Below are positions 47,273 through 59,286 of a stretch of DNA of 64,000 nucleotides, piece after piece (position 1 is the stretch's first letter; each line of letters opens with the position of its first letter). Where the stretch lies: contig JACIWU010000007.1 in assembly GCA_014360805.1 (NCBI GenBank), forward strand, positions 1 to 64,000. Direction: 5' to 3'. Under the pieces are notes generated by a model. That model ran no database searches, was not told the DNA's origin, and worked only from the letters and a program-made list of their open reading frames with translations. Source of the DNA: Chloroflexota bacterium. Lineage in GTDB: Bacteria > Chloroflexota > Anaerolineae > DTLA01. A program made the position numbers and the translations under genes.

Positions 47273-48733
47273 ATGCCCATCAAGTTCGGAACCGACGGTT
47301 GGCGAGCCGTCATCAGCGACGAATTCACCTTCGCCAACGTGCGCCACGTATCCCAAGCCATCGCCGACCACATCCTCAAGGATCGGATGAACGGCGAGCC
47401 GCATCCTCATCCCCTTGTCATCGTCGGGTTTGACACCCGCTTTCTCTCCGACCGGTATGCGGCAGAAGTGGCTCGCGTCCTGGCCGGCAACGGCATCCGC
47501 GTGTACCTGAGCAAATCGGACTGCCCCACACCCGCCGTGTCCCACGCCATCCGTCGGATGGGGGCCACGGGCGGCGTCATGGTAACCGCCAGCCACAACC
47601 CCCCGCGCTACAACGGCATCAAGTACAAGGCTTCCTTCGGCGGATCTGCCATGCCTGCCGAGACCGCCCAGATTGAAGCGCACCTCCAGGCCAACCTGGC
47701 ATCGGGACGCCAGCCCGTGCTGGCCGACTGGGCCATAGAGCAGGGGGTGCTCCCGCCCCAGCCCAGCGGCGCGGAAATCACCCGCTTTGACCCCATGCCC
47801 GACTACCTGGCGCACGTGCGCTCGCTCATCAACCTGGACGTCATCGCCCGCTCGGGCCTGCGCGTGCTCATAGACCCCATGTATGGCGCAGGTCGCGGGT
47901 ACATGCGCGCCCTCCTCGCCGAGGCCGGGCTTGTGGCCGACGAAATCCACGGCGAGATGAACCCAGGCTTCGGCGGCATCCACCCCGAACCCATCAGCCG
48001 CAACCTGGGCGATCTCATACGCACCGTGCGCAACGGCTACGACATCGGCCTGGCCACCGACGGCGACGCCGACCGCATCGGCGCTGTGGATCACCTCGGC
48101 AACTTCGTGGACCCGCACGCCATCATCGCGTTGGCCCTGCGCCACCTGGTGGAGAACCGAGGCATGCACGGCTGCGTCGTCAAGACTGTCTCCACCAGCG
48201 AGATGGTGGCCCGCCTGGCTCGCCGCTACGGCCTCCCCCTGTACGAAACGCCCGTGGGCTTCAACTACATCTGCGACCACATGCTGGACAAGGACGTCCT
48301 CATCGGCGGCGAAGAGAGCGGCGGAATCAGCATCAAGGGCCACCTGCCCGTCGGCGACGGCATCCTGATGGGCCTGCTCCTGCTGGAAATCGTGGCGTCC
48401 AACGGCAAGTCGCTGCGCGAACTGGTGGACGACCTGCAGCGCACCGTCGGCCCGTTCCGGTATGCTCGCCACGACCTGCGCACCAGGCCCTTCGTCAAGT
48501 CCGAATTGGTGCGCGCCCTCAAGGCCAGTGTCCCCGCCCAACTCGCCGGACTGCCCGTGCGCGCCGTGGACGACAGCGACGGCATCAAGTACCGCCTGCA
48601 AGACGATTCGTGGCTGCTCATCCGCCCGTCGGGCACGGAGCCGGTGCTGCGCATCTACGCCGAAGCCCCCACCGCCGAGATAGTGCAGGCCCTGCTGGCC
48701 GAGGGTGGGCGCATGGCCCAGGCGCACCTGTAG
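47273..48733 (+). CDS. Phosphoglucomutase/phosphomannomutase family protein
   Basis: 486 residues, ATG with GAGGAGA upstream. Start KFGTDGWRAVISDEF is typical of the alpha-D-phosphohexomutase superfamily. The active serine S107 is in TASHNPPRYNGIK, the metal loop is DGDADR (263-268), the sugar loop is GGEESGGISIKGHLPVGDG and the phosphate loop is RPSGTEPVLRIY. It interconverts hexose-1- and hexose-6-phosphates for wall or glycogen sugars. Exact sugar preference cannot be read. Confidence 0.9.
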   Translation: MPIKFGTDGWRAVISDEFTFANVRHVSQAIADHILKDRMNGEPHPHPLVIVGFDTRFLSDRYAAEVARVLAGNGIRVYLSKSDCPTPAVSHAIRRMGATGGVMVTASHNPPRYNGIKYKASFGGSAMPAETAQIEAHLQANLASGRQPVLADWAIEQGVLPPQPSGAEITRFDPMPDYLAHVRSLINLDVIARSGLRVLIDPMYGAGRGYMRALLAEAGLVADEIHGEMNPGFGGIHPEPISRNLGDLIRTVRNGYDIGLATDGDADRIGAVDHLGNFVDPHAIIALALRHLVENRGMHGCVVKTVSTSEMVARLARRYGLPLYETPVGFNYICDHMLDKDVLIGGEESGGISIKGHLPVGDGILMGLLLLEIVASNGKSLRELVDDLQRTVGPFRYARHDLRTRPFVKSELVRALKASVPAQLAGLPVRAVDDSDGIKYRLQDDSWLLIRPSGTEPVLRIYAEAPTAEIVQALLAEGGRMAQAHL

Positions 48734-48983: not shown

Positions 48984-51900
48984 ATGACCAATCAGCCACC
49001 TTCCACCGTCGGCAAAGACCGCCGCCTGCTCCTCAAAGCCCTATGCGTTGCCCTTGCAGTCGTTGCCATCGCGCTGCTGGCGCGCGCGCAGAATACTTGG
49101 GCCAGCCCGCCCTCCGCGCCCGTCAGCCAGACCATCCCCGCGCAAGTGCGGTTCAACGGCCCCCCTTACGAATGGGCCGTGCAGGTGGGGTCGGTGCTCA
49201 CCCTGGAGTTCTGGGTGGACCCGGCGGGGCCGGGCGCCTATACGCAACAGATCGCCTTTACGTTGACCTTTGACCCCAGGTACCTCATGGTCGTGGATGC
49301 GGCGGGCAACCCGACGAGTCAAATCACGCCCAACACGGCAATCTTGAATAAAGTCAACCTGAACTCCGCCAACAATGGCACGGGACTGATCCAGTACAAC
49401 GCCGAAGACACGACGCCCTGCAACAACGAAAACAAGTCGTCCATCAAGATCGCCACCGTCCGCTTCAAGGGCAAGGCGGCTACATCCGGCACTGCGCTTA
49501 CATTCGCCAGCGTCGGCGTAAGCGGGCCGGGCTTCACATGCCCCTCCCCGTACTTCTCCTACTCTGCCATCGTGCGCAACGGCAACGTCATCGTTACCGC
49601 CGCCCCTGCCACATCCACGCCCACGCCCACGCCCACCATCACCAACACGCCCACGGCCACCCCCACGCCTACGAACACGCCAACGCCGATTCCTACCCCC
49701 ATGCCCGGGCGCGGCCAGATTCTCGGCTTCGCGTTCTGGGACGTCAACCACAACGATCGGCGCGAGCCTTACGAGCCGCCGTTGGGTGGGGTGCGCATTT
49801 CCCTCCGCAGCGCGCAGGGAACAGAACTGAGCGCGGCGATTTCCCGCGCAGACGGGTACTACGAGTTCCTGGCGCTGTATCCGGGCGTGTACCAGGTGGT
49901 GCAGACCACGGCCCCCACGGGCTGGCAGGACATATCCGCGCCCTGGTTCGGCGCGGTAACCGCCGATGAGACCTATCTCGTCAACTTCGCCAACGCCCTG
50001 CTGCGACAGAGCAACCGCTATCTTCCCTTCATCATGCGCAACGCGAGCGGCGCGAACATCGCCCCCAACCTCGCCCCGCGGGACGCCCGTCTTGCCGACA
50101 TCAGCCTGCCCGACGCCCGCCGCACGCCGGTCATCTCCAGCGCCAGGGCCCTTGCCTCCCAGGGCAGCGCGCCGGTCCGCGCGGACCTCTCCGTGGCGGC
50201 AACGGTCGTCGCCACCGTCCCCGTGCTGGACAAAGCCTACGACGTGGAAGTGGCGGGCAACTACGCCTACGTGGCCGACGGGCTGGCGCACCTCACCGTG
50301 CTAAACGTGTCCAACCCCATCAGCCCTACCTTCGCGGGGCGCGCGGGCGAAGGCTCCGGCGAAGCCCACGACGTGGCCCTGCTGGGCAACAAACTCTTCA
50401 TGGCCGAGAAGTACGGCTGGCTCCACATCTACGACATCACGAACCCCGCCAGCCCGTACCAACTGGAAATCATGAAGACCAATGCCTTCGTGAAGGGCGC
50501 GGATGCGGTGGGCTCCTATGCCTACATCGCCGACGAATGGGAAGGGATGCATGTGGTGCGGGCCACCGCCCCCTACACCATCGTGGGCACGGCATCAGGG
50601 GGGTGCGACTTCGCCGAGCGGGTCTGGTCCGACGGAACCTACGCCTACGTCGCGGGCGGCACATGTGGGCTTCGTATCGTCAACGTCTCCAACCCCACCA
50701 ACCCACAGGTGCTATCCACCCTGGCCTTTGACCCGGTGGGCTACCAATGGGATGTGTGGGTCAACGGCAACTACGCCTATCTCGCGGGAGACGCCGCCGG
50801 CTTGCGCGTCGTCAACATCGCCAACCGCAGCGCCCCGGTGCACGTAACCACGGTGGACACCGACGGCGCGGCCCAGGCCGTGTACGCCGAGGGGAACTAC
50901 GTGTTTGTCGGCGACGGCCCGGCGGGGGTGAAGGTCTATGACGTAACCAACCCCGCCGCGCCCGTGCTTGTGGCCTCCGTGAGCACGCCCGGCAACGTCT
51001 GGGGCATCTTCCACAAGGACGGCTACGTGTACGCCGCCGCCGAATCCGCGGGAGTGGTGGTGATCCAACTCGCCCCGCCCACGCCAACCCCGACGCCCAC
51101 CCCCACCCGCACGCCCACCAACACAGGATCGCCCACGCCCACCAACACCCGCGGCTCGCCCACGCCCACCAAAACCCACACCGCTACCCGCACACCCACG
51201 CCCACCTTCACGCCCACGCCCAACCCGCGCTTCCGCTTCGGCTTCGGCATTGACACCAGCATCGGTCAGATCGGCGACTACGACGTAACCCAACTGGGCG
51301 CAGGGTGGTATTCGGATTGGAGTTACCGCGTATCGCCACCGCGGCCCGGCGGGCTGGAATACTTCCAACTCATCAACGTCCGCTCGGACGTGGTGCAGGT
51401 GTACACCCCGACCAAGGTCGTTACCTATACCGGCTGGGCGAACCTAGAATCGGCCATCGCCGCCAACCCTGGATCCGTCTGGCTCATCGGCAACGAACCC
51501 GACTGCAAGTGGCCCGACTGCAACAACCGCTACCCCGATGAATACGCCGTCCTCTATCACGAGTTCTACACCTTCATCAAGAGCCGCGACCCCACGGCCC
51601 TGGTGGCCAATGGCGCTATCGTGGAAGGCACGCCCCTGCGCCTGCAGTACCTGGACATGATCTGGGACAAGTACCGAGAATACTACGGCACCGACATGCC
51701 CGTGGACGTGTGGAACATGCACAACCAGATCGCGCGCGAGAAAGAAGGCGACTGGGGCGCAGGCATCCCGCCCGGATTCCCGCCCGGCACCGTCGGCGCC
51801 CTCTACGAGGCCGAGCAGAACGACAGCCTGTCCCTGTTCATCCAGCACGTGCGCAACATGCGGACGTGGATGCGCGACCACGGCCAGCGCAACAAGCCGC

Positions 51901-54872
51901 TCATCATCTCCGAGTACGGCGTGCTGTTCACCGAAGACCGCGGCTTCACCGTGGACCGCGTCAATGACTTCATGAGTGCCACGTTCCGCTACCTGCTCTA
52001 CGCCACCGACCCGGACATCGGCTATCCCGCCGACGGCAACCGCCTCGTGCAGCGGTGGCTCTGGTTCAGCCTCAACTCGCCGCCGTGGAAGTGGAACGGC
52101 TCCCTGTTTGATTACACCGTCGTGCAATATCCGGGCGTTATCACCCGCTACGGCATCAACTACCGCAATTTCACGTCGGACCCCTGGCGCGCCACGCCCA
52201 CGCCGGCGGGCACCCCCGGCCCCAAGACCATCTACCGCGAGGCCGAGGGCGGCTCCCTGTCGGGTGACATGCGCATCGTATCCGGCCAGACCGCCGCGTC
52301 CAACTGCGCCTACGTGGACACGCCCCCCAACAGCGCGGGCGGCAACGTGAGGGTATCGGTCAACGTGCCGACGGCTTCGGGCTACTACGTCTGGCTGCGA
52401 GTATACGGCCCCAACACCAACAGCAACTCGTTCTGGGTCTCGGTGGACGAGGGGCTGGAATACAGCATGGAGTTCACTCCCGGCTCATGGCGGTGGGAAC
52501 GGCTGGGTGGCTCCAACCCCGTGCGGTTCAACCTCACCACCGGCTGGCACCGCATCATGGTGCGGCAAAAGGAAATCGGCGCGCGGGTAGATGCCATCGT
52601 CGTGTCGGACAACCCCAACCTCTCGCCCGACATCCCCAACCCGTGCTACACCCCCACGCCGACGCCCACCCACACGTCGGTCTACACGCCCACGCCCACC
52701 CGCACGCCCACGTCCACCCGCACCCCCATGCCCACCGGCGACGCCCACATCCTGGGCCATGTGGCCCTGCAGGGCCGCCCCACCCCGCCCGACCCGCGCT
52801 GGGCCGTGCCGGTACACGTTACGGTGCACCTGCCGGGCGACCCCATCCCCGCCTACCAGGCCCACCTGGACACCGACGAGAGCGGCAACTTCCTGATGGA
52901 GAACCTGCAGCCGGGAACCTACGACGTGGCCGTGCGCAACTGGCACACCTTGTGGAATCGCATTGGCAATGTAGTCCTCGCTTCGGGCATCAACTCCGTG
53001 AACCTGGGGACGCTGAAGGAAGGCGACGCGAGTCAGGATAACGTGGTTGATGTCACTGACTTCTCGCTTCTGGCAATGTCGTTGCTCAAGAGGCGAGGAG
53101 ACACGGGCTTCATCAACACGACGGACTTCAATGAAGATGGAACGACGGATGTCAGTGACTTCTCGTTGCTGGCAATGAACATCCTTCAATCCGGTGCGGC
53201 AGTGACGCCTGTGGCGGTCCGGATGACACCGAAGGCTTCCGCGCCAGAAGCCACATGCTCCGATCAGGTGAATCTCTATTTCTCGCCGAGTTCCAAGACT
53301 GTTCTACTTAATGAGTCTTTTACGATCAAGGTGCGCGTAAACCCGGTCGCGCATCAGGGTATATCCGGCGTCCAGGCCAGGATCACGTTCGACCCGATTA
53401 TCCTTCAACTCGTCTCAGTGACAGATTCGGGGCCGTTGGACTTCCTAGGCGGCAGCGGATTGCAGATTGGCAGCAACTATGTTCAGTTTGTCATGGGCAC
53501 GTTGGAGACGCCCGTGACCAACGACTTCTCGCTGATCGACCTGAACTTCAAGGCCCTGACGCCCGGCACCAGTACGCAGCAATTCACTGCCCTCTCTGGG
53601 GGAGAGCCCATCAAAGCCACAGGGCCTGACTGCACAACGGGATTCGCCCTGTACACGCCATCCGGCTCCGTTACCGTCCTCGCCGCCACGCCCACGCCGG
53701 TCGCCACGGCCAAGCCCACCTACACGCCCACGCCGCCCCTCCCGCCGGGCGAATCCGAAATCGTCCTGCAGTACGGCAAGGACGGCTACACGCAGATGTG
53801 GGACACCTACATCTCGGGTTGGAACGAAACCAACAACTATGGCCAGGAGTGGACCATGAAGGTCCGCACGGGCGACGTGCGTCAGCCGCTCCTGAAGTTT
53901 GACCTCTCGCCTGTTCCGGCGGGGGCCAATGTAACAGGCGCCCACCTGGACCTGTACGTAACCGACGGCACGGTCCACGCCCTGGACGTAGGCGCGTACA
54001 AACTCCTGCGGCCCTGGGCCGAGAACGAAGCCACGTGGATTCTGGCGCGGGCCAACGACCGGTGGAGCGTCCCAGGGTGTGGCGACGTGGGCACCGACCG
54101 CGCCGACACCGCCGTGTACACGCAGACCGTGCACGGGGCCGTCGGGTACTGGTATTCGTGGGACGTAACGTCGCTGGTGCGCGACTGGCTCGCCGAGCCG
54201 TCGCAGAATCACGGCCTCATCCTGCGCGGCGGAGGCTCCACCAGCACCGAGTACACCATCGCGGCCGCCCAGCACCCCACCCAGGCGTGGCATCCCAAAC
54301 TGGTGATCCGCTACACGCTCACGACGCCGACGCCCACGCCCACGGCAACGCCCACCTCCACGCCGAAACACACCCCCACGCCGACCGCCACGCCCACGGC
54401 CACCCCGCCCTGGGGCGGAATTGAGGGCATCGTGTTCCACGACCTGAACGCCGACGGCTTGTATCAGTGGGGCGAGCCCCCGTTGGCCGGCGCGCTCATC
54501 ACCCTGCGCACCGACGCTGGCGTGCAGATTGCCACCCGCCTGACCCAGTCCAGCGGGCGCTACTCGTTCCCGTACCTGGATCCGGGCACCTACTACGTAA
54601 CCGAGACCGACCCGCCCGGGTACACGTCCACGGCCAACGTGTTCCGCATCACCGTGATACCCAACTGGATGTTCGTCATCAACTTCGCCGACTATCCGGC
54701 GGGCGGATCATCTCCAACCCCGACGCCAACGGCCACCGTCGCGATGACGCCCACGCCCACACCGACCGCCACGGCGACGGCGACCGCTACACCGACCACC
54801 ACGGCGACGGCCACGCCACACAACACGCCGAGGGCGCGGTTGTGGCTGCCACACGTGGCCCGCGGACAATGA
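48984..54872 (+). CDS. Giant secreted modular protein with cohesin-, dockerin-, LVIVD- and glycosidase-like modules
   Basis: 1962 residues, ATG behind AGGAG. Signal peptide 1-40. In order: cohesin-like (about 50-205); Thr-Pro linker; SdrD B-like (about 243-342, GFAFWDVNHNDRREPYE); RYLPFIMRN; LVIVD propeller (about 405-697); linker; GH-A-like barrel (about 750-1068) with GNEPDCKW and IISEYGVLF, both Glu kept; a carbohydrate-binding-like sandwich (about 1080-1212); a CnaB-like domain; a dockerin-like pair (about 1347-1402, DASQDNVVDVTDFSLL and DFNEDGTTDVSDFSLL); a second cohesin-like domain (about 1422-1568); DNRLRE-like (about 1591-1782); SdrD B; and a WLPHVARGQ terminus. A surface scaffold binding polysaccharide is likely. 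Bases ~53020-53640 are visibly less GC-rich than their surroundings, suggesting an acquired dockerin/cohesin block. Confidence 0.82.
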   Translation: MTNQPPSTVGKDRRLLLKALCVALAVVAIALLARAQNTWASPPSAPVSQTIPAQVRFNGPPYEWAVQVGSVLTLEFWVDPAGPGAYTQQIAFTLTFDPRYLMVVDAAGNPTSQITPNTAILNKVNLNSANNGTGLIQYNAEDTTPCNNENKSSIKIATVRFKGKAATSGTALTFASVGVSGPGFTCPSPYFSYSAIVRNGNVIVTAAPATSTPTPTPTITNTPTATPTPTNTPTPIPTPMPGRGQILGFAFWDVNHNDRREPYEPPLGGVRISLRSAQGTELSAAISRADGYYEFLALYPGVYQVVQTTAPTGWQDISAPWFGAVTADETYLVNFANALLRQSNRYLPFIMRNASGANIAPNLAPRDARLADISLPDARRTPVISSARALASQGSAPVRADLSVAATVVATVPVLDKAYDVEVAGNYAYVADGLAHLTVLNVSNPISPTFAGRAGEGSGEAHDVALLGNKLFMAEKYGWLHIYDITNPASPYQLEIMKTNAFVKGADAVGSYAYIADEWEGMHVVRATAPYTIVGTASGGCDFAERVWSDGTYAYVAGGTCGLRIVNVSNPTNPQVLSTLAFDPVGYQWDVWVNGNYAYLAGDAAGLRVVNIANRSAPVHVTTVDTDGAAQAVYAEGNYVFVGDGPAGVKVYDVTNPAAPVLVASVSTPGNVWGIFHKDGYVYAAAESAGVVVIQLAPPTPTPTPTPTRTPTNTGSPTPTNTRGSPTPTKTHTATRTPTPTFTPTPNPRFRFGFGIDTSIGQIGDYDVTQLGAGWYSDWSYRVSPPRPGGLEYFQLINVRSDVVQVYTPTKVVTYTGWANLESAIAANPGSVWLIGNEPDCKWPDCNNRYPDEYAVLYHEFYTFIKSRDPTALVANGAIVEGTPLRLQYLDMIWDKYREYYGTDMPVDVWNMHNQIAREKEGDWGAGIPPGFPPGTVGALYEAEQNDSLSLFIQHVRNMRTWMRDHGQRNKPLIISEYGVLFTEDRGFTVDRVNDFMSATFRYLLYATDPDIGYPADGNRLVQRWLWFSLNSPPWKWNGSLFDYTVVQYPGVITRYGINYRNFTSDPWRATPTPAGTPGPKTIYREAEGGSLSGDMRIVSGQTAASNCAYVDTPPNSAGGNVRVSVNVPTASGYYVWLRVYGPNTNSNSFWVSVDEGLEYSMEFTPGSWRWERLGGSNPVRFNLTTGWHRIMVRQKEIGARVDAIVVSDNPNLSPDIPNPCYTPTPTPTHTSVYTPTPTRTPTSTRTPMPTGDAHILGHVALQGRPTPPDPRWAVPVHVTVHLPGDPIPAYQAHLDTDESGNFLMENLQPGTYDVAVRNWHTLWNRIGNVVLASGINSVNLGTLKEGDASQDNVVDVTDFSLLAMSLLKRRGDTGFINTTDFNEDGTTDVSDFSLLAMNILQSGAAVTPVAVRMTPKASAPEATCSDQVNLYFSPSSKTVLLNESFTIKVRVNPVAHQGISGVQARITFDPIILQLVSVTDSGPLDFLGGSGLQIGSNYVQFVMGTLETPVTNDFSLIDLNFKALTPGTSTQQFTALSGGEPIKATGPDCTTGFALYTPSGSVTVLAATPTPVATAKPTYTPTPPLPPGESEIVLQYGKDGYTQMWDTYISGWNETNNYGQEWTMKVRTGDVRQPLLKFDLSPVPAGANVTGAHLDLYVTDGTVHALDVGAYKLLRPWAENEATWILARANDRWSVPGCGDVGTDRADTAVYTQTVHGAVGYWYSWDVTSLVRDWLAEPSQNHGLILRGGGSTSTEYTIAAAQHPTQAWHPKLVIRYTLTTPTPTPTATPTSTPKHTPTPTATPTATPPWGGIEGIVFHDLNADGLYQWGEPPLAGALITLRTDAGVQIATRLTQSSGRYSFPYLDPGTYYVTETDPPGYTSTANVFRITVIPNWMFVINFADYPAGGSSPTPTPTATVAMTPTPTPTATATATATPTTTATATPHNTPRARLWLPHVARGQ

Positions 54873-54933
54873 TGAGCGACGCACCCCTGCCACAGGAAGA
54901 ATCGGAGGCCATTTGCGAAGGAGAACACGGACT

Positions 54934-57900
54934 TTGAGCGCGCATCTACGCAGGCAACCCCATCGCTGGCTATCCGCTGCCATCGCCGCTGCGGCCATGG
55001 GCCTGCTCGCCCTTTTCGTCGGCGCATCCCTGGCGGCGTCCACGGCGGCAGAGAGCGGCGCGTGGCGCTTGTCTTACCAACTGGACTACAGCGGCGTGCC
55101 CGACTGGGTAACCCATCGCGACATCACCTTGCGCATCCGCGTGGGCGAGAGCGTAACCGCCCTGTCCGCCGAAACAGCCGCGGGAGCCGTCTCCCACGTG
55201 TACGACCCCATCTCCGGCGTGGCGATCATCACCACCGACGCCCCGACGCTCACGGTCCGCCTTGCCGCCGATGCCGTGCCCGCCGATTTCGGCGCGGTCT
55301 CCACGGCCCCGCTCATGCACGACAAACTCTGGGCCTACAGCATCACCGCCGACGACGGCTACGCATCCGCCTATGAGCATCTGCTCGCCATCCTGGGCCG
55401 CTACAACTATCGCGGCTCCGTGGCCGTCATCGGCACCAACCTGGGCAAGACGGTGAACGGAGTGCGCTACCTCAACCCAGAGGAATTGCAGGCGCTCTTC
55501 GCCGCGGGTTGGGGCGTAACCAACCACACCTACAGCCACAAATACTTCGCCGACTATCCCAACGAGGCGGCTCTTGTGGCCGACGTGCAATGGAACAACG
55601 CCGTCATCAGCGATACCCTGGACGGATTCCAGCCGCGGATTTTTACGTCGCCGTTCACCGAGCCCCAGTTCGCGCCGGTGATTCGGGCCAACCGCGGCAC
55701 GCTGGGCCTGTACCTGGTGCAGCACCTGGGCTGGCGTATCAACTACGTGGACCCGCCGACCTTCCTCACGACGGACTACTTCTGGACCACCGGCCGCGAC
55801 CGCATTGAGGAATGGCACTACGACGACGCCCACCAGCGCGCCCTGGCGAACGGCGGCACACCCCTGTGGCTGACCCATCACGTTCACGACGAGGCGGGCC
55901 TGGACCCCATCTGCAACGCGGTGGAAATCGGCACGGACTATCTCTACTACCATTATGGCGCGGGCGGCACCGACGAGGTCTGGGTCGCGCCTGCCCAGGA
56001 AGTGTACGAGTACCTGGTTACCAGAGCCGCTATTGGCGTGTCGCTGCTGGCAGCGGAACCGGACGACTTTACCGCCATCTTGCCCGCGCCCAACATCACG
56101 CCGACGCCCACGCCCCTGCCCACGCTGTACACGCGCACCTTCTACCCCGTCGCCGACACCACCCTCAGCGCCGAGCAGTGGTACGACAACTTTGGCGAAG
56201 ACCACACCCTCCGCGTGCGCACCAAGCGGGACCTGCCCAGCGTCAAGGCCGCGCCCATCCGCTTTGACCTCTCGTCCATTCCAACCTACGCCACGGTTAT
56301 CACGGCGGAACTTCGGCTCTACAGCCTGAGCCAGAGCAATACAGCCTGGCTGTGCCTGGACCTGTACCGCCTGAACCGCCCGTGGGACGAGCGACAGGCC
56401 ACCTGGGACCGCGCCACCGCAGACGCGCTGTGGGCCGTCCCTGGTGCCAACGGCGTGCCCCACGACCGCGAGGGGACGCTGGCGACCGTCCGCTGCTGGG
56501 TGCAAAGCGTGGACCGTTGGTACACCATGAACGGCAAAACGCTGGCCCAATACTGGGTCAACAACCCGGACAAGAACGACGGCGTCTTGGTCAAACCAAG
56601 CGGCGGCTCATCGGTGGAATACCAATTCGTGTCGCGTGAGGGCGAACCCGACAAGCGGCCCCAACTGATCGTGTCCTACGTGCTGCCCGACAATGCCCCC
56701 ACGCCGGCGCCGCCCACGGCCACGCCCGAATACGCCTGGCCGCTCAAAATGCGCGTCCTGTCCACGACGAGCACCGAAGGGTTCGCCTACAACGTGCGCG
56801 CCAGGGGCGGCTACGCCTTCATCGCCAACGGGTCGCTGGGCAACATGCGCGTGGTGGATGCGCGCATTCCCGCATCACCCGTCCTGCTGCCGAAGGACCC
56901 CAAAACCACCGCGGGCGGCATCGCCCACAGCGTCTTCCTGCTGGGGAACCTGGCGCTCACCGGTGAGCGCACGGGGGGCATGCGCATCTACGACATCACG
57001 GACCCCGACAGCGCCGCCTTCGTAACCCGATTCCTCACCAGCGGGTCGGCCAAGGGCGTGGCCGCCTACGGCAACACCGCCTACATCGCCGACGAGTACA
57101 GCGGCCTGCAAATCGTCAACATCACCAACCCGCGCAGCCCTACGCTCATCAAAACGTTCAACATGAGCAACTTCTTCACCGAGGCGGTGGACACGGATGG
57201 CTCCTATGCCTATGTGGCCGCGCGGCAGGGCCTCTTCGTCATCAACGTCAAGAACCCGTACTCGCCGCGCTACGAAGGCAGCATCCCACTTCCGGGCTAC
57301 CCCTACGCCGTGCAGAAGATAGGCAACCTGGCCTATGTGGCGTGCGGCGGCAGCGGCGAAATCCCGTCCAAAGAAGGCGGCCTGCAAATCGTGGATGTCT
57401 CCACCCCCAACGCGCTCCGCGTGGTTGGCTCCTACCGTCCGAGCACGCCTGTACTGGGAGTCCGCGTCGCCGGCAACCGCGCCTACCTGGCCGCTTATGA
57501 CGGGGGCATCGTCGTGTTGGACGTAACCGAGCCCGCCAGTCCGGTCCTCCTGGGCGAAGCCGACACGCCCGGCCAGGCCTGGGGCATTGATGTGGAGAAC
57601 GACCTGGCCTACGTGGCCGACGGCGCAGCGGGCCTCACCATCGTGGATGTGGGACCTGTTCCCACGCCCACACCGACCGCCACTCCGTCGCTCACACCCA
57701 CCGAGACCCCAACCCCCACACCCACGTGGACGCCGACCGAGACCCCAACTCCCACGTCAACCGAAACACCCACCGCCACGCCGACGGCAACGCCCACCCT
57801 TACGCCGCGACCGTCCTATCGGCTCATCCTGCCCCTCATCTGGCGCGGCGCGGAAAGCCCGGCCCGCTCACAGGCCAAAGCGCAGAGCCTCCCCGAACTG

Positions 57901-59286
57901 GCCGGGGCGCAGGCCCTCTACGGCTCCGAGGCCGACCGCTTTGGCGTCGGCGTCAACCCCGTGTACGGGCGCATCACCGACTACGACGTGGCGCGGTTGC
58001 ACATCGGCTGGTACTCCGACTGGTCCTACAGCGTCAACCCGCCGCATCCCGCCAACCTGGACTACGTCCACGTCGTCTCGGTGCACCACGACAAGTACCC
58101 GCCGGACTGGAACCGCCTGGCCCAGGCCATCGCCGCCAACCCGGGCGCGCTCTGGATCATCGGCAACGAGCCGGAAGGCGTGTGGCAGGGCAACCGCACG
58201 CCCGCCGAATATGCGCTCATCTACGGCACGCTCTACCGCTTCATCAAGGCCCGCGACCACACGGCCCAGGTCGCCATCGGTGGCGTCATTGAGCCGACCC
58301 CGCTGCGGCTTCAGTGGCTGGACCAGGTGATGGCGGAGTATCAGGCGCTGTACGGCCAGAAAATGCCGGTGGACGTGTGGAACATCCACGTGCAAATCCT
58401 GCGCGAGAAAGGCCCGTGGCCGGGCTGTCCCGACTGCTGGGGCGCGGGCGTTCCCGTGGGCCTGACGGGCGTAACCCAGGGGCGCTTGTACGAGATTGAA
58501 GACAACGCCGACCCGGCCATCTTCCGCCAACTGGTGCGCGAGTTCCGCCAGTGGATGAACGCCCGCGGCGAGCGCGACAAACCGCTCATCATCTCCGAGT
58601 ACGGGGTGCTGATGCCGTCGGACTACCTGGCCCCGACCGTAGAAGAAGGCGACCTGATAGTGAAGCATTTCATGACCGAGACTTTTGACTTCCTGCGCAC
58701 GGCTGTGGACGCAAACGTTGGCTACCCTGCTGACGGCAACCGCCTCGTCCAGCGCTGGCTCTGGTATAGCCTGAACGACTCGCCGGACAACTTCAATGGC
58801 GGCCTGTTTCGTCACGACGACCCTTCGCAGATTACGCAGTTCGGCGAGCACTTCGCCCAGTACACCGCCCCGCTGCAATGGCCATTCACTGATCTGGCCG
58901 TTCGGTCGGTGGTGCTCACGCCCAACGTGCTGCAATCCACGCCTCTCACGCTCACAGCCCGTGCCGAAATCCTGAACCTGGGGACGCAGGCCACAGGGCC
59001 TTTCATCGTTGCCTTCTACGAGGGCAACCCGCAAAGCGGCGGCGTGCTCAAGGCCCAGGTGCTGGTAGCAGGCGCAGCTGCCCGCTACGACGCCGCGCCT
59101 GTCATCGCAGAAGCGTCCTGGCTCACCGCGCCCGGCATCCCCGGCCAGGCTCGCGAGGTGTACGTAGTGGCCGACAGCGCTGGCGCTATCGGCGAGTCCA
59201 ACGAGGCCAACAACATGGGGATGCGCGCCGTTACCGCCCACGCGCCATTCGCGCGCTACCTGCCCGTGGCGCTGCGCCGATACTGA
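54934..59286 (+). CDS. Giant secreted protein: deacetylase-like, DNRLRE-, LVIVD-, glycosidase-like and CARDB modules
   Basis: 1450 residues from a TTG at 54934 with AAGGAG 10 nt upstream; a TTG at 54913 is possible but lacks such a site. Signal peptide to about 35. In order: beta domain; polysaccharide-deacetylase-like (about 125-385, [18 protein letters not shown] and NHTYSHKYF); DNRLRE-like (about 399-585); LVIVD propeller (about 602-905); Thr-Pro linker; [13 protein letters not shown]-like barrel (about 1000-1315) with GNEPEGVWQ and [14 protein letters not shown]-like domain (about 1319-1435); [11 protein letters not shown] end. The barrel and propeller are clear paralogues of those in the preceding protein, 62 bp upstream. 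Probably a surface enzyme acting on extracellular polysaccharide. Confidence 0.8.

Follow-up and report, generated by a model that had tools for sequence, protein, structure and literature searches.

The window, the whole stretch of 64,000 nucleotides that was analysed, encodes a putatively secreted multi-domain protein of 1,962 amino acids at 48984-54872 on the forward strand, starting with ATG at 48984, with a longer version from a GTG at 48705 being possible. The modules follow each other in the order signal-peptide-like start, divergent cohesin (cohesin 1), SdrD/CnaB-like modules, six LVIVD stretches, glycoside-hydrolase-like region, CnaB-like module, dockerin, second cohesin (cohesin 2), CBM96/DNRLRE domain and SdrD_B domain, and Thr-Pro linkers are present. 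The features are as follows, G001 being a sister genome.

48984..54872, + strand: whole coding sequence, 1,962 amino acids (open reading frame and translation)
48984..49115, + strand: N-terminal signal-peptide-like stretch (translation read by eye)
49116..49508, + strand: cohesin 1, divergent (A1 profile 49.2 bits; PF00963 alone 18.4 bits, cut-off 24.1)
50184..51030, limits approximate, + strand: LVIVD repeats, beta-propeller-like region (PF08309, 147 bits, six stretches)
51249..52139, + strand: glycoside-hydrolase-like region (PF02836, 17.8 bits, under the curated cut-off of 21)
52740..53018, + strand: CnaB/carboxypeptidase-regulatory-like module adjoining the dockerin on the 5' side, conserved chassis (Pfam and sister comparison)
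53022..53186, + strand: dockerin with two duplicated halves (PF00404, 31.6 bits; 28.6 bits in a second scan)
53025..53060, + strand: calcium loop 1, DASQDNVVDVTD (loop pattern read directly)
53124..53159, + strand: calcium loop 2, DFNEDGTTDVSD (loop pattern read directly)
53265..53639, + strand: cohesin 2 (PF00963, 33.0 bits; AlphaFold model against solved cohesins, Z up to 16.3)
53029..53684, + strand: segment very probably replaced, with most of the dockerin, the spacer and cohesin 2 (51% nucleotide identity to G001; score 277)
53130..53489, + strand: core of the low-GC3 stretch (best low segment, shuffle test)
53799..54311, + strand: CBM96/DNRLRE domain, conserved chassis (PF24517, 59.5 bits; NF033679, 95.1 bits)
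54429..54635, + strand: SdrD B-like domain (PF17210)

The next gene, at 54913-59286, joins a polysaccharide deacetylase with LVIVD repeats, a glycosyl-hydrolase-like core and CARDB. Between its product and the dockerin-cohesin protein the hydrolase-like parts are 54% identical. Similar-looking C-terminal ends are found at 54837-54872 and 59247-59286 and at the ends of open reading frames in the loci L020, L023 and L068. Several of them come after Thr-Pro linkers and they are perhaps a sorting or anchoring tail.

In the translation of 52992-53699 the dockerin scores 28.6 bits against PF00404 (residues 11-65, curated cut-off 22.9) and cohesin 2 scores 33.0 bits against PF00963 (residues 107-194, curated cut-off 24.1). 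Both calcium loops have the form D-x-[S/N]-x-D-[N/G]-x-x-D-x-x-D and match the dockerin profile, not just non-dockerin repeats, which confirms the dockerin-like loop pair of the original prediction. That prediction also placed two cohesin-like domains in the protein. The whole-protein scan does give two cohesin stretches, but the first is divergent, stays under the PF00963 cut-off and lies far upstream at 49116-49508, outside the region concerned (52990-53700). The AlphaFold model of the dockerin-cohesin tandem, built from 13 sequences, has a pLDDT of 82.6 and a pTM of 0.78 with low confidence in the spacer (residues 70-86), and its cohesin part aligns with 2vo8 over 131 residues (Z 16.3, rmsd 2.2), with cohesins of C. 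perfringens and A. fulgidus among the nearest folds. The best Foldseek and VIA matches cover the cohesin part of the model, not the dockerin, and a single-sequence model with a pLDDT of 40 was set aside. The dockerin is type I-like and two-faced, and a short spacer, disordered, separates it from cohesin 2.

Two other genomes of the same genus, G001 (JADBJK010000024.1) and G002 (JARYMK010000093.1), and one genome of the same class from outside the window's order, G161 (DIVN01000232.1, UBA6131), allow the pair to be compared in its surroundings. Nucleotide identity between the window and G001 is 51% over 53029-53684 and about 88% around it; the segment was delimited by a maximum-score scan in which the score of 277 compares with a maximum of 28.9 in 1,000 shuffles. 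The orthologues in G001 and G002 are mostly 82-96% identical to the window protein in the modules flanking the block, against 33-58% in the block itself, taken as four windows of 50 residues. Between the window and G001, pS is 0.75 and pN 0.42 in the block, compared with 0.34 and 0.044 in the chassis, and pS is 0.39 on the 3' side of the block and 0.32 in the neighbouring phosphoglucomutase gene. Synonymous sites are near saturation in the block only. G161 has the same chassis (81% amino acid identity in CnaB, 73% in the next linker) with a third, unrelated pair that is low in GC3 and whose cohesin 2 is 32% identical.

G001 and G002 carry the same allele (pN 0.05), and a conserved chassis with a hypervariable recognition part is found as three alleles in four genomes, a count across genomes and not within a population. 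The G002 gene is split over two contigs and the half that is available matches G001 at 94% of the amino acids; because of the split, the G002 value for cohesin 2 in the comparison with best counterparts is meaningless, and the window-G002 value 3' of the block (0.58) was discarded for poor alignment of the fragment. Between G001 and G002, pS in the dockerin plus spacer is 0.48. The chassis gives 0.16, and its windows of similar length do not go above 0.31. These comparisons show that the block has its own history. The cohesin exchanged together with the dockerin is cohesin 2 of the block and not the upstream cohesin 1. Cohesin 1, for its part, has a pS of 0.58 to G001 against 0.34 in the chassis, perhaps from an older exchange.

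The original prediction held that the bases from about 53020 to 53640 differ in composition from the flanking modules, and the computed composition is indeed not uniform. Total GC is 0.55-0.58 at 52850-53600 and 0.65-0.70 alongside. The best low segment, 53130-53489, has a GC3 of 0.63, where the remainder of the gene has 0.87, and a score of 14.3, higher than in all 2,000 shuffles (maximum 10.7). Over 53055-53648 GC3 is 0.70, compared with 0.88 in the upstream chassis. The region predicted from composition nearly coincides with the segment 53029-53684 found independently from the divergence to G001.

Low GC3 could have been intrinsic to dockerin and cohesin modules, an explanation that is rejected because, over 43 dockerin-cohesin reading frames from the class and phylum samples, block and neighbours differ by 0.00 in mean GC3, and because the other cohesins and dockerins of the window's genome have a GC3 of 0.74-0.94 against 0.68 and 0.73 for the two modules of the block. 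The dip in the window block (-0.18) ranks second among these 43, also when corrected for amino acid make-up, with G161 first and G001 third. The 43 are the set of 44 tandems, used here and for covariation below, with one omitted as too near a contig end. Since the blocks of G001 and G161 are also low in GC3, composition alone leaves the direction of replacement unfixed.

The window's genome (96% complete, 154 contigs) has 12 cohesin matches, nine of them over the cut-off, and two dockerins over the cut-off; a profile derived from alignment A1 finds 15 cohesin modules in the examined loci. When the 15 cohesins and four dockerins examined are compared with their best counterparts in G001, cohesin 2 (39%) and its dockerin (61%) are the lowest of their kind. 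The remaining 14 cohesins reach 58-97% and the remaining three dockerins 87-98%; two of those cohesins are only 58% and 60% identical, and their orthologues may be absent from the regions compared. Another dockerin-cohesin tandem of the same genome, on contig C24, is 98% and 84% identical to G001 in its two modules, with pS 0.19 and 0.29 and GC3 0.90 and 0.89, and its pS is lower than that of its own chassis.

Searches for relatives of the block alone gave the divergent alleles in the sister genomes and G161 but no close donor. The tandem protein (P0002) gave no donor in the genome-contig collection, a search with alignment A2 returned eight loci of which none is nearer than the sister and G161 alleles, and viral contigs, plasmids and phages gave no donor match. 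At E 1e-15, three of 400 genomes in the phylum sample matched, one being the window's own. A paralogue in the same genome was rejected as donor, the best other match there being 36% identical (E 0.0016).

It is very probable that the dockerin and cohesin 2 were replaced as one block. As to module acquisition, though not as to its being recent, the original prediction is supported in this sharper form, as replacement of an existing pair, because the sisters carry a different pair in the same place and in the same chassis. Most likely both modules were replaced together, through recombination with a donor that was divergent: homologous recombination in the conserved flanking modules would have swapped the pair in the window's lineage, and the incoming pair, divergent and with lower GC3, would come from an unsampled donor.

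Fast evolution in place, under diversifying selection or relaxed constraint and without import, would also give a divergent block. An exposed pair could be under selection and pN is high, pS is raised in cohesin 1 too (0.58), and weaker codon bias in the block could lift pS. However, near-saturated synonymous sites are limited to the block and GC3 falls with them, modules of the same types elsewhere in the genome evolve at or nearly at the rate of the chassis, and the pS of dockerin plus spacer exceeds that of the chassis (0.48 against 0.16) even between G001 and G002 with their common allele; divergence in place is therefore distinctly improbable. An assembly chimera, with sequence from a different strain or organism joined into the contig by error, would fit a fragmented assembly of 154 contigs, but neither joint interrupts the reading frame, the inserted modules are of the same two kinds and sit at the homologous position, and two other alleles of the pair occur in three other assemblies, which makes an artefact of this kind highly improbable.

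The halves of the window dockerin read VTDFSLLAMSLL and VSDFSLLAMNIL at the recognition positions and show the internal duplication. Of the 89 dockerin-bearing reading frames, 72 dockerins were compared, leaving out duplicates of five loci, identical sequences and dockerins below 45 bits, including all three other dockerins of the window's genome. Within the 44 that precede a cohesin, agreement between halves is 0.537 against 0.378 when permuted (0 of 5,000 permutations). The excess is largest at loop positions 9, 10, 11, 14, 17, 18, 20 and 21, with some at 13 and 7; the accessible part of PMC8063739 gives 10 and 11 as determinants of specificity. There is no excess at positions 2, 4, 15, 19 and 22. 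Positions 17, 18, 21 and 22 may also contact the cohesin. The 28 dockerins without a cohesin after them have a similar pattern (0.552 against 0.425, 0 of 5,000). The pattern speaks for selection on two binding faces that are equivalent, the repeat of the presumed recognition residues in both halves being the dual-binding signature. Internal gene conversion of the helices possibly contributes to the likeness of the halves; the core helices of the window dockerin are identical in 27 of 30 bases, counted by eye.

Sequence alone makes it difficult to foresee which cohesin a dockerin will bind. In distance-matrix tests the contact positions of the dockerin correlate with the next cohesin at r=0.38, with a partial correlation of 0.20 after controls (0 of 2,000 permutations), whereas the CnaB module correlates with the cohesin at 0.58, and in 17 proteins with a cohesin on both sides of the dockerin the correlation is 0.667 for the upstream and 0.663 for the downstream cohesin. 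The higher value for CnaB means that shared ancestry explains much of the covariation, which was rejected as too weak to prove pairing. The exchange itself is more informative: the genome's other cohesins mostly stayed as they were, so cohesin 2 is a natural candidate partner, and there is about an even chance that the two modules are a cognate pair.

A cognate pair might nevertheless have no role in assembly. The dockerin could act as a structural clamp that docks on the adjacent cohesin of the same chain; the spacer is short, and the pTM of 0.78 and pLDDT of 82.6 of the tandem model, reached despite the low-confidence spacer, would fit docking. The 28 of 72 compared dockerins that have no cohesin after them carry the same duplicated faces, and a clamp seems fairly unlikely. 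A scaffold for several proteins, with the dockerin serving other cohesins of the genome, is unlikely: the 12 cohesin matches (nine over the cut-off) and 15 modules found with the A1-derived profile offer partners, but most of those cohesins stayed in place when the dockerin was exchanged, and they score 14-52 bits against 106 bits for cohesin 2, a comparison that is partly circular in that the profile includes the window sequence.

In the preferred explanation, block replacement of a cognate pair, the match between dockerin and cohesin 2 would be the reason for their joint exchange. The dockerin of one copy would bind cohesin 2 of another copy with calcium, such binding would link molecules into chains or a surface layer, and exchange of the pair would alter which copies can join. 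That predicted dockerin-cohesin binding links copies into chains or a fibre, as originally suggested, is possible but doubtful. The explanation as a whole, with replacement, pairing and linking of copies, is given a probability of about 0.6. It is quite unlikely, but conceivable, that the pair is an exchangeable self-recognition cassette by which copies on neighbouring cells join only when they have the same allele. If so, recombination of a 650-base cassette would found new compatibility groups, with a logic like that of TraA and parts from cellulosomes.

The locus amounts to an experiment done by nature: a single dockerin and a single cohesin were exchanged jointly while most other cohesins stayed unmoved, which names likely partners, and the three available allele pairs would allow a three-by-three binding matrix. 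To our knowledge, the use of cohesin and dockerin modules outside cellulosomes is largely unexplained.

The comparison with cellulosomes in the original prediction is not supported for the window's genome, nor is membership of a cellulosome. In the examined loci of the window's genome (96% complete, 154 contigs) there are at most two cohesins per reading frame and no scaffoldin with three or more. Another genome of the class, G043, has 13 dockerin matches and an open frame of at least 2,779 amino acids (L085, G043:C79:1-9000, reverse strand) with one dockerin followed by nine cohesins, which is scaffoldin-like. Locus L107 (G055:C17:191000-199500) has three adjacent open frames, each with a dockerin at its end, and the recognition residues of the three dockerins are almost alike. 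In L064 (JAFNFZ010000061.1) a frame ends in a dockerin and a cohesin lies in the next frame about 150 bases on, like a tandem split into two genes.

With an E limit of 1e-6, the tandem (P0002) has relatives in 51 of the 396 class genomes searched. The module orders in the 89 dockerin-bearing reading frames are dockerin-cohesin (28), dockerin alone (25), cohesin-dockerin-cohesin (23), cohesin-dockerin (7), cohesin-cohesin-dockerin (5) and one dockerin with nine cohesins (1), counts that include five duplicate loci. The frames come from 62 regions with higher-scoring matches in the class and phylum samples and are biased to tandems because the query is a tandem. Cohesin and dockerin modules thus occur in this class, compared with none in the six Anaerolineae genomes (five curated genomes and UNI-1) covered in the accessible part of Xia et al. 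2016 (PMC4877987). By title and start of abstract, searches combining Anaerolineae, Chloroflexi or Chloroflexota with dockerin gave no paper on such proteins, with thin coverage of subscription journals, and none of the titles listed concerned a dockerin-cohesin pair being exchanged.

Cohesin and dockerin modules of secreted proteins outside cellulosomes, as reportedly described by Peer et al. in 2009 (a study cited by PMC9012536), resemble those of the window protein, in which, however, a tandem of the two is exchanged as a pair between close relatives. Cellulosomal dual-binding dockerins, in the accessible part of PMC8063739, likewise have two near-identical halves with matched residues at 10 and 11, but the window dockerin precedes a cohesin in a multi-domain protein and is not on a cellulase. 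The dockerin and cohesin sets of ANME, according to the text available from PMC9012536, are also extracellular, are thought not to serve cellulose degradation and differ between related genomes; hosts and carriers are others, and exchange of a pair is not among what that text reports. TraA of myxobacteria has a conserved chassis with one hypervariable recognition part, going by the portion of PMC3820747 at hand, but its PA14-like domain comes without cohesin or dockerin, and the likeness is one of analogy with no homology claimed. ScaC of Ruminococcus flavefaciens, like the window protein, combines a cohesin with a dockerin and differs from strain to strain; from what is accessible of PMC3197198, part of the ScaC dockerin varies while the cohesin is conserved, whereas in the window protein the dockerin and the cohesin change together.
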